From the NCBI GenBank assembly GCA_944391115.1, contig CALXSJ010000001.1, forward strand, positions 253,169 through 317,168: a stretch of DNA of 64,000 nucleotides. Direction: 5' to 3'. Below are positions 16,879 through 47,750 of this stretch, piece by piece. This DNA comes from an uncultured Victivallales bacterium (GTDB lineage Bacteria; Verrucomicrobiota; Lentisphaeria; Victivallales; UBA1829). The translations under genes were made by a program, and so were the position numbers. The notes beneath the pieces are model-generated. The model searched no databases. It was given only the letters and a program-made list of their open reading frames with translations, and was not told the DNA's origin. The stretch's first letter is position 1, and every line of letters starts with the position of its first letter.

Positions 16879-17592
16879 ATGATGAAAAAAACTGGTTTCC
16901 TTCTCGGCTGTCTCCTGCTCCTTGCTCTTTTCTGCGCGGGAGAGGAAGAGCTCCGCCCCTTCCGCAAAAAAGCGCTTTTAATCATGCCGCAGGAAAAAAT
17001 GCATGACTGGTACAAGCCCGGATTCGCGGCACGCGGATGGACTTCCGAATGCGTTGCGGCGGAGAAAGCGAATCTTGCCGATCCGGGTGGCTGCGATGTC
17101 GTTCTGATCTATTCCTACAACGGGCACAGAATCCCGCAGAATTTCCATACGGAAAAACTGCTTCCCGCGATCCGCGGCGGAACCATTGCGGTTTATACGG
17201 TCGCCGGCACGCGTTTTGAGCCGGACCGCTGGTTTCATGACCCATCCCTGAAGACAGGATACACGAAAAATGATCCGGCCCGGCGGAAGTTCTTTTTTGA
17301 GAACCCGGATTTCGAGAAGACGCCGAATCCGCTCTCGAAAAGCTACCGCTACAACCATTCGTTCACCTTTGTCCCGGAAACCCCCGGGAAATGGATTCCG
17401 CTGATCTGCAATCTTGCCGCGGACGGCACGAAAAAGCCGGTGCTGATGGCTGCTCCCTGCGGAAAAGGCATGATCGTTTGCGCGGCTGCGATTCAGACGG
17501 GACAGGCTCCGCACGAAGTCGTGCTGCAGCTGGAAAATCTTGTCGCGTTCAACAGAGCCCGGCATGCGCCTGCGGAGAAGCCGGAAAAATAA
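16879..17592 (+). CDS. Secreted ThuA-like single-domain protein, paralogue of the DUF4838 C terminus
   Basis: The 237-residue protein has a signal peptide (MMKKTGFLLGCLLLLALFCAG) and then a single alpha/beta domain beginning KKALLIMPQEK. The end, PETPGKWIPLICN to APCGKGMIVCAAA, parallels the C terminus of the DUF4838 protein at 11750-14584 (PEKWEVLARQK, RPCGKGMVLINAA). It therefore looks like a free-standing copy of that domain. The fold resembles ThuA or glutamine-amidotransferase-like domains, but I cannot point to a catalytic Cys-His pair. The start follows AGAAAGG. The stop TAA lies three bases from the 125-base repeat. Confidence 0.72.
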   Translation: MMKKTGFLLGCLLLLALFCAGEEELRPFRKKALLIMPQEKMHDWYKPGFAARGWTSECVAAEKANLADPGGCDVVLIYSYNGHRIPQNFHTEKLLPAIRGGTIAVYTVAGTRFEPDRWFHDPSLKTGYTKNDPARRKFFFENPDFEKTPNPLSKSYRYNHSFTFVPETPGKWIPLICNLAADGTKKPVLMAAPCGKGMIVCAAAIQTGQAPHEVVLQLENLVAFNRARHAPAEKPEK

Positions 17593-17594
17593 AT

Positions 17595-17719
17595 TACCGC
17601 GATGCAAGCATGCGCGGTATTGGGGATTTCGCCTCCGGCGACCAGCTTACGCAGCTGGACCGCGGCAGGCCTGAGAGTCCTGCACGAAGCAATTTTTGGC
17701 GATGCAGAGCATCGCGGTA
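17595..17719 (+). repeat. 125-base multi-hairpin intergenic repeat, copy A
   Basis: This stretch matches the minus strand of 37286-37410 over the same 125-base length, with blocks such as GATGCAAGCAT, GGGGATTTCGCC and CCGGCGACC kept. The ends are inverted repeats (TACCGCGATGC and GCATCGCGGTA). Several hairpins can be drawn: 17595-17619, TCGCC/GGCGA, CCAGCT/AGCTGG, GCAGG/CCTGC and GCGATGC/GCATCGC. It could be a structured RNA or a small non-autonomous mobile element. Confidence 0.75.
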
Positions 17720-17909
17720 TCAACCTAAATTTTTTTGAAATAAAGCCGCATGGTTCCGATCTCCTCCGATCGTTCCTCCCTGTCCGGAAGATGCGCGGGC
17801 AAGCTTTTTCGGTCCGTCCGGAAATGGAGTCCGGGGGGGCGGAATGGTTTGGGCCGCTCCCCGGGTTTCCGCTCTGCATTTTCTTCAGCACCTGTCCGCA
17901 TAACCGGAA
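17720..17909. other. Non-coding stretch between repeat and terminator
   Basis: I see no credible gene on either strand here. Open frames exist but lack a ribosome site and any recognisable sequence. Together with the repeat and the hairpin at 17910 it may form one untranslated transcript. Confidence 0.4.
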
Positions 17910-37236: not shown

Positions 37237-37285
37237 GTCTCTTTTCTCTGATTTTTCCGGATTTATCTGCAAAAATCAGGGGGAA

Positions 37286-37410
37286 TGGTGCGATGCTTTG
37301 CATCACCAGACCAGCTTCGCGTTCTCCAGTGAATCCTGGCGCGGTCCGGCAGCGCTGGCCGGTCGCCGGTGGCGAAATCCCCGATCCTGTGTAATGCTTG
37401 CATCTCGGCA
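37286..37410 (-). repeat. 125-base multi-hairpin intergenic repeat, copy B
   Basis: Read on the minus strand this copy matches 17595-17719 with the same length. Its hairpins include TCGCC/GGCGA, CCGGC/GCCGG and GATGC/GCATC. In the second hairpin the third pair is G-C here and A-T in copy A, a compensating change; the sixth pair is lost here. In the third hairpin one C-G pair becomes a G-U wobble. The surroundings differ: no gene ends next to this copy. Confidence 0.75.
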
Positions 37411-37638
37411 ATTTATTTTTTTTCTGCGATACGCATCCGGGGATCACCGCGTTACGGCATGAACTCTGACCCCGACCTGTCCCGGCGTCTGCATTTCCCG
37501 GCGTCTGCATTTCCCGGCGCGATTCATGAAAATTCCTACTTTCTGAAAGAGCGGGGTTGAAAAAAACGCAACTAGTGTTAAATTTAATAGTTCACATATG
37601 GAATCGAACGGAAATTCTTTTTACAAGGAGATAGAAAA
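37411..37638. other. Upstream region of rpmF with a short tandem repeat
   Basis: I see no gene here. CCCGGCGTCTGCATTT occurs twice in tandem and then CCCGGCG follows (37481-37519). A weak promoter for rpmF may lie near 37557-37590 (TTGAAA and an AT-rich stretch), but it does not stand out. AAGGAG precedes the rpmF start. Confidence 0.4.
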
Positions 37639-47565: not shown

Positions 47566-47580
47566 AATTCAGAATGAAAA

Positions 47581-47668
47581 ATCGTCGGGGTGTTCCGGTC
47601 ATGCGGACCGGGGCTGAGATCAGACCCGAAGAACCTGATCCGGATCATGCCGGCGTAGGAATCACGAT
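47581..47668 (+). ncRNA. TPP (THI-box) riboswitch
   Basis: The aptamer has P1 ATCGT (47581-47585) pairing with ACGAT (47664-47668), the conserved GGGGTG and GCTGAGA of the pyrimidine-sensing arm, and GAACCTGATCCGGAT with GCCGGCGTAGGAA of the pyrophosphate arm. It binds thiamine pyrophosphate and lowers expression of thi4. Downstream, CACCGG/CCGGTG (47676-47692) can form a hairpin with a T-rich loop; with no T tract after it, control may be at translation. Confidence 0.93.
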
Positions 47669-47750
47669 GGAACCGCACCGGTTTTTCCGGTGGAATGCCT
47701 TGCCTGAATTCCCGCCGACAGAAAGCCGGACCGAACGAAAGGAAGTTGAA

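Follow-up and report, generated by a model that had tools for sequence, protein, structure and literature searches.

The repeat and its surroundings

The window analysed here, a 64,000-nucleotide stretch of one contig from an uncultured Victivallales bacterium (hereafter the host), contains two copies of a multi-hairpin repeat in opposite orientations (Table 1). Copy A abuts the 3' end of a gene whose product has no Pfam family match, while copy B adjoins, on the upstream side, a TTGACA...TATAAT-like promoter that precedes a GntR-family gene. The window also holds a TPP riboswitch at 47576-47680 (RF00059, 65.7 bits).

An earlier note on this DNA had described the repeat as two inverted copies of 125 bases each on opposite strands, and reading the sequence confirmed both copies and their coordinates; the unit itself proved to be longer, the true element measuring approximately 149-151 bp. 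Copies A and B are 80% identical across 74 bases and 73% identical across a gapped alignment of 120, and their core motif yields two matches in the window, with none expected from shuffled sequences. The perfect 11-base inverted ends reported for copy A (TACCGCGATGC/GCATCGCGGTA) are present, and the change of the hairpin CCAGCT/AGCTGG to CCGGCC/TGCCGG had been described correctly, with an A-T pair becoming G-C and the innermost pair lost in copy B. Folded as RNA, copy A outperforms shuffled sequences on both strands (z -2.6 and -3.6) and copy B does so weakly (z -2.0 and -0.6).

Table 1. Coordinates of the two copies, their parts and the adjoining gene in the window. For copy A the strand is the transposase-sense one (TnpA top), the reverse of the orientation used in the earlier note.
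Feature	Position	Strand	Description
Gene upstream of copy A	16879..17592	+	237 aa; ends at the element-borne TAA (17590-17592)
Copy A	17588..17738	-	complete element, 151 bp; boundaries from empty sites and flank alignment
Right cleavage site (CR)	17588..17593	-	element-borne; AATAAA on +, 5'-TTTATT-3' on -
Right-end (RE) hairpin	17595..17619	-	TACCGCGATGCAAGCATGCGCGGTA; same hairpin after tnpA in IS200-type elements of other genera
Right guide base	17621	-	A on -; 5' of RE hairpin; putative pairing with the variable CR base (T in copy A)
Core	17626..17683		three adjacent hairpins, 17629-17641, 17642-17658 and 17665-17683
Left-end (LE) hairpin	17700..17714	-	CGATGC-AGA-GCATCG; layout as in the LE of the autonomous element L142
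Left guide base	17721	-	C on +, G on - ('TC' subfamily); covaries with the AATRAA target base
Retained target / left cleavage site (CL)	17739..17744	-	AATAAA on +, 5'-TTTATT-3' on -
Copy B	37268..37417	+	divergent, opposite in orientation to copy A; ends approximate
Copy B RE	37417-37400		AATAAATTGCCGAGATGC; LE of copy B degenerate

Element boundaries and empty sites

Alignment of flanked copies revealed that conservation starts at AATAAAT, 7 bases before the start given in the earlier note, and runs on to the right through a T-tract, YAACCTAAATTTTTTTG(A), up to an AATRAA; in copy A this tract ends at about position 17738. The 11-base inverted ends were rejected as terminal repeats, being the arms of two sub-terminal hairpins internal to the true ends. 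On the transposase strand the layout reads TTYATT (target in the flank) / CAAAAAAATTTAGGTTRATACC-hairpin (LE), three-hairpin core, RATACC-hairpin-GGTA(A/G)TTTATT (RE), with the element's own cleavage site coming last.

A search for empty sites or target duplications, as the earlier note had proposed, uncovered orthologous loci lacking the element in genomes of the same genus, which place the insertion precisely at AATRAA (5'-TTYATT-3' on the transposase strand), and no ordinary duplication. At one locus, G-AATGAA in G001-G003 corresponds to G-AATAAAT...TTTTTTTGA-AATGAAG in the host, and at another CACGTGA-AATAAACG in G001 and G003 corresponds to CACGTGA-AATAAAT...TTTTTTTG-AATAAACG; two more clean empty sites have AATGA targets. 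The empty-site sequences in these genomes read ...TTCG/AATGAAG, ...GTGA/AATAAACG, ...AAGA/AATGAACC and ...TAAA/AATGAGC (slash, insertion point). The sites of both window copies are unoccupied in G001, where the orthologue of the copy A site reads GAAATAGATTC.

Filled sites have the form AATAAAT-element-AATRAA, with the target kept on the right and the element-borne AATAAA on the left whatever the target. Among near-identical copies AATAAA is always found on the left, even where the empty site is AATGAA, and the flanks of such an insertion are unequal (AATAAA left, AATGAA right). By its sequence, this flank arrangement is that of the IS200/IS605 type viewed from the opposite strand, with TTYATT upstream of LE and an RE ending in TTTATT.

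Distribution in the host and its congeners

The earlier note had named a lack of other copies, or changes among further copies that destroy the stems, as what would tell against its reading; neither was the case, and dispersed copies were found. The host assembly (3.66 Mb, 44 contigs, approximately 95% complete) gave 53 matches, about 16 of which are identical to each other and one base removed from copy A. By end pattern, at least 41 RE ends (left on the + strand) are present in this assembly, with none detected by a reversed-pattern control. Approximately 40 host copies were recognised, this figure and that of 29 non-tandem copies being reached after removal by eye of four false pattern matches and of tandem followers. 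Host contigs C16, C17, C34 and C35 start or stop inside copies of the element; the repeat breaks the assembly, and the copy number is therefore a lower bound. Many copies are also present in two of the three same-genus genomes (G001 and G003).

About 11 of the 40 copies come downstream of another in head-to-tail arrays with AATRAA at the junctions. Such arrays would be expected if the element's CR can itself serve as a target, new copies entering at the end of old ones.

Autonomous relatives and transposase

Y1 transposases were searched for in 61 genomes and their flanks then read. In G058, G028 and G024 the stop codon of tnpA is closely trailed by GATACC-hairpin-GTAGTTCATT, which is the RE of the host element. 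A search with that TnpA identified, in a genome of another genus (G020), a nearly complete autonomous element with both ends, L142, the closest tnpA-bearing one of this kind, laid out as TTTATT/CTTTTGGGTTTAATACCCCGACCCTCTGGGTCGG (LE)...tnpA...GATACCCCGCGTGCTCTGCACCGGGGTAGTTCATT/, with its RE given as GATACCCCG...CGGGGTAGTTCATT. The 146 aa TnpA of L142 scores 120.6 bits against NF033573 (cut-off 55) and 115 against PF01797 (Pfam Y1_Tnp), and it matches the solved structures of the IS608 transposase and of 2xm3, 2xma and 2xo6, which we take to be ISDra2 TnpA structures. The guides of L142 each fit their own site (left guide A with left site T, right guide G with right site C), and no tnpB was seen in this element.

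The RE hairpin recurs in other phyla: a degenerate RE pattern, searched in one genome per species, matched in Bacteroidota, Cyanobacteria, Erysipelotrichaceae, Lentisphaerae and others, and some of these matches have a tnpA of the same type. Across these phyla (L169-L270) the RE motif occurs in dispersed form, showing the same covariation of guide and cleavage site and often lying in short elements without tnpA.

The host assembly (fragmented, approximately 95% complete) contains no intact TnpA of the L142-type subfamily, and near-identical recent copies are present in the host despite this. The TnpA source may have been lost, may be unassembled or may be horizontally shared; in Haloquadratum, insertions have been observed though IS200-type transposases are nearly all pseudogenes (PMC3119063). 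Three Y1 genes were considered as partners and set aside. A broken gene in the host (G000:C35:25416-25862) belongs to a different IS200 subfamily and has no matching ends in its sequence, a fragment on contig C3 of G001 is truncated and of another IS200 subfamily, and a gene on contig C4 of G002 is of the same subfamily, but an in-frame TAG breaks it and no clear ends are present. The broken host gene sits near the end of its contig, downstream of a tRNA-like sequence.

Covariation of guides and cleavage sites

The target can be written as T-6 T-5 Y-4 A-3 T-2 T-1, and the left guide, TRAT, directly precedes the hairpin stem. With the guide read on the + strand, host copies combine T with AATAAA in 10 cases, C with AATGAA in 10, C with AATAAA in two and T with AATGAA in none (p=1e-4), and over three congeners the association of left guide and target has p=2.6e-5, the kinship of the elements making these p-values, like those for the right end, optimistic. 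Some guide-target pairs disagree, copy A being one such exception (guide C, target AATAAA). Two young subfamilies are almost identical apart from the guide, the C subfamily having one extra A at its end, and because they are otherwise so alike the association stems from separate insertions.

That IS200/IS605 targeting works by DNA-DNA guide pairing is known from work on IS608, and laboratory studies have redirected it. In that element, base pairs A16:T-3 and A17:T-4 link the guide to the target (PMC5934647). The variable left guide base described here would face Y-4, in the same register as the second guide base of IS608 with T-4.

At the right end, 65 distinct 70-mers from across phyla comprised 42 G:C and 16 A:T combinations, five mismatched ones (1+4) and two others (p=2e-10); covariation persisted when only distinct hairpins were counted (p=0.002). 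The guide thus fits the cleavage site or target by covariation at both ends, as the IS200/IS605 mechanism has it, with the pairing itself predicted, and the landing site seems to be chosen via a single guide base.

Strand bias

Under the HUH mechanism, the transposase strand is expected on the template for lagging-strand synthesis, whose sequence is that of the G-rich leading strand. The transposase strand coincided with the G-rich strand in 19 of 22 loci and then in 11 of 14 fresh loci, giving 30/36 overall (p=7e-5), with GC skew in 20-kb stretches as the proxy for the direction of replication and with neighbouring loci partly interdependent. By this proxy, the element has the lagging-strand orientation bias of the IS200/IS605 family.

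Insertion at stop codons

TTYATT is AATRAA on the other strand, containing TAA or TGA, and the element itself ends in AATAAA, so that insertion at an ...AATRA stop leaves the protein unchanged and merely swaps the stop. With genes called by a home-made codon-score caller, a long upstream gene terminates in frame at the TRA of the left AATRAA in 14 of the 29 non-tandem copies, copy A included; AATRAA sites outside elements fall at stops in 25 cases, in intergenic DNA in 127 and within genes in 327. Compared with the free non-coding or stop AATRAA sites (25/152), the share of stop placements among the copies (14/29) is approximately threefold higher (p=4e-4). The orthologue in G001 of the gene upstream of copy A stops at a TAG in the same place. 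At one locus at least, L003, the unoccupied site falls where two genes overlap at an ATGA, and insertion has preserved the stop codon of the first gene as well as the start codon of the second. The neutrality of such insertions is a candidate reason for the enrichment at stop codons, which could arise through selection against insertions elsewhere or through these sites being easier to reach.

Core hairpins

Stems 1 and 2 of the core keep their pairing through compensatory changes in 27 distinct sequences from several genera, with 22 cells in which both sides have changed against 0/500 in shuffles, although the sequences were partly picked for having the stems, which inflates the share of paired cells. 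The two-hairpin core motif is also found without IS200-type ends, in intergenic runs of many short palindromes. On host contigs C4 and C3 (L284:4200-4760 and L285:6480-7050) there are long intergenic runs of varied short perfect palindromes whose order varies, such as GAACTTTTCC/GGAAAAGTTC, CAAGGGTC/GACCCTTG and GAAAAATGC/GCATTTTTC. The core hairpins of the element recur inside these runs with compensatory changes in their stems.

Neither copy A nor copy B has an Rfam match at the gathering threshold, and a permissive Rfam search with copy A returned nothing relevant, its best hit (E 0.099) lying far below the gathering score. A terminator and promoter scan of copy A detected nothing of either kind. 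A hammerhead-like CUGAGAG...CGAA in the core was dropped, as it showed no core match by eye and no Rfam hit. The core is the part of the element that could still have an RNA role.

Nature of the element

These results very probably identify the repeat as a non-autonomous element of the IS200/IS605 type (a PATE, or IS200-derived MITE) whose movement depends on a small HUH/Y1 TnpA acting in trans. Like other elements of this kind, it is dispersed and mobile, with unoccupied orthologous sites, has neither terminal inverted repeats nor ordinary target duplications, is too short at 149-151 bp for a transposase gene, and bears near-terminal palindromes at RE and LE that match those of tnpA-bearing elements. 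From the copies, boundaries, empty sites, ends shared with tnpA elements, covariation, strand bias and stop placement, all read from the sequence, we infer excision and insertion in trans by TnpA through a single-stranded DNA circle. In this scheme TnpA would recognise the two sub-terminal hairpins in single-stranded form and release the element from the lagging-strand template as a circle, which would then insert 3' of a TTYATT picked by pairing with the guide 5' of the left hairpin. The enzyme mobilising the element would be a Y1 HUH TnpA whose type is known only from relatives.

The earlier note had left the choice between a structured RNA family and a small mobile element. Dispersed copies, empty sites, tandem re-insertion and a transposase family with the same ends speak for the latter, and RNA is displaced as the primary explanation by the lack of an Rfam match and by the nature of the end hairpins: as these are the counterparts of the hairpins bound in IS200/IS605 elements, no RNA function is required to explain their compensatory changes. 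In a combined form, a structured RNA (a 3'-UTR cis-regulator, terminator or sRNA) would have been spread by transposition and retained for a useful transcript, its core functional and its IS200-type ends the vehicle. The compensatory changes of core stems 1 and 2 in the 27 sequences, the existence of the core outside the element, and the frequent start of elements right at a stop codon in the sense orientation of the gene all agree with this. However, hairpin covariation is expected of any DNA palindrome element, and was scored here on a partly stem-selected set; the target sequence alone accounts for the stop-codon position; copy B lies upstream of the promoter-like TTGACA...TATAAT and a gene start rather than 3' of a gene; and with neither an Rfam match nor a terminator-like site in copy A, we regard an RNA family as unlikely.

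Two further classes of repeat share features with the element. REP/BIME-type repeats moved by a RAYT (TnpA-REP), instead of an IS200-group TnpA, are likewise palindromic, high in copy number and intergenic, and depend on the same enzyme superfamily (PMC2817692, PMC6006769), but the host genome has no match to NF047646 (RAYT), no RAYT gene flanked by the element's hairpins was seen, and an element of about 150 bp with two different ends that match the IS200 group and have no GTAG-type tetranucleotide is not a single palindrome of 20-40 bp, which makes this origin highly improbable. A MITE mobilised by a DDE transposase or a recombinase through 11-bp terminal inverted repeats, as the perfect inverted arms of copy A might suggest, is barely credible, given that these arms lie inside the true ends, that there is no ordinary target duplication, an AATGAA target yielding AATAAA on the left and AATGAA on the right, and that orientation bias, guide covariation and tnpA-bearing relatives indicate an HUH mechanism.

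Comparison with known systems

As an IS200/IS605-type element, the repeat resembles the PATEs of Haloquadratum walsbyi and other IS605-derived non-autonomous elements (PMC3119063, PMC7290912) in having no room for a transposase, near-terminal IS200/IS605 palindromes and no ordinary target duplication, in outnumbering autonomous elements, and in having spread where the host has few or no intact tnpA genes. It differs from them in its bacterial (Victivallales) host, in a TTYATT target that overlaps stop codons, in bringing its own stop, in a shared core of extra hairpins, and in falling into two subfamilies with distinct guide bases and targets. With IS608 of H. pylori and ISDra2 of D. radiodurans it shares, through its autonomous relative, a homologous TnpA, as well as hairpins at both ends, a guide 5' of each hairpin that covaries with the cleavage site, an insertion point 3' of a short, fixed target, and lagging-strand orientation. 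In contrast to these two, whose targets are TTAC and TTGAT, it uses TTYATT and is gene-free, L142 has no visible tnpB, and the CR of the host element copies the target, so that tandem arrays form. The TnpA-only IS200-group elements of Bacteroidota, Cyanobacteria, Erysipelotrichaceae and others (L173, L178 and relatives) have the same RE, AATRAAYTACCNCGNTGCAAGCANNCGNGGTAT, encode a TnpA of the same type if they have one at all, and show the same guide-CR covariation, but their internal sequence is different and lacks the three-hairpin core. A lone IS605-type end hairpin at and overlapping the 3' end of a coding gene is also a feature of the IS605B stem-loops after Borrelia lipoprotein genes, which occupy few loci and for which the passages concerned describe neither guide-target covariation nor a stop-codon target (PMC2775950).

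Biological significance

The element is of a known kind, a PATE or IS200-derived MITE, and what is notable about it is that guide and target covary in nature and that its insertion restores the stop. We tentatively propose, at somewhat less than even confidence, that it has evolved into a stop-codon specialist whose cleavage sites mimic AATRAA, making insertions into stop codons protein-neutral, and that two subfamilies of one genome have switched between TAA- and TGA-type stops via one guide base (plus one spacer base), a natural reprogramming of DNA-guided transposition recorded in many independent insertions. No description of stop-codon targeting by an IS200/IS605-type family was found in the open-access papers searched.

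The close relatives studied here provide a natural insertion set in which guide and target change together, and target sites can be predicted for a transposase subfamily that is spread over several phyla. The finding also accounts for a group of intergenic repeats that would be catalogued as candidate non-coding RNAs without it, and indicates that stop codons can offer a safe harbour to a mobile element that brings a replacement stop of its own.
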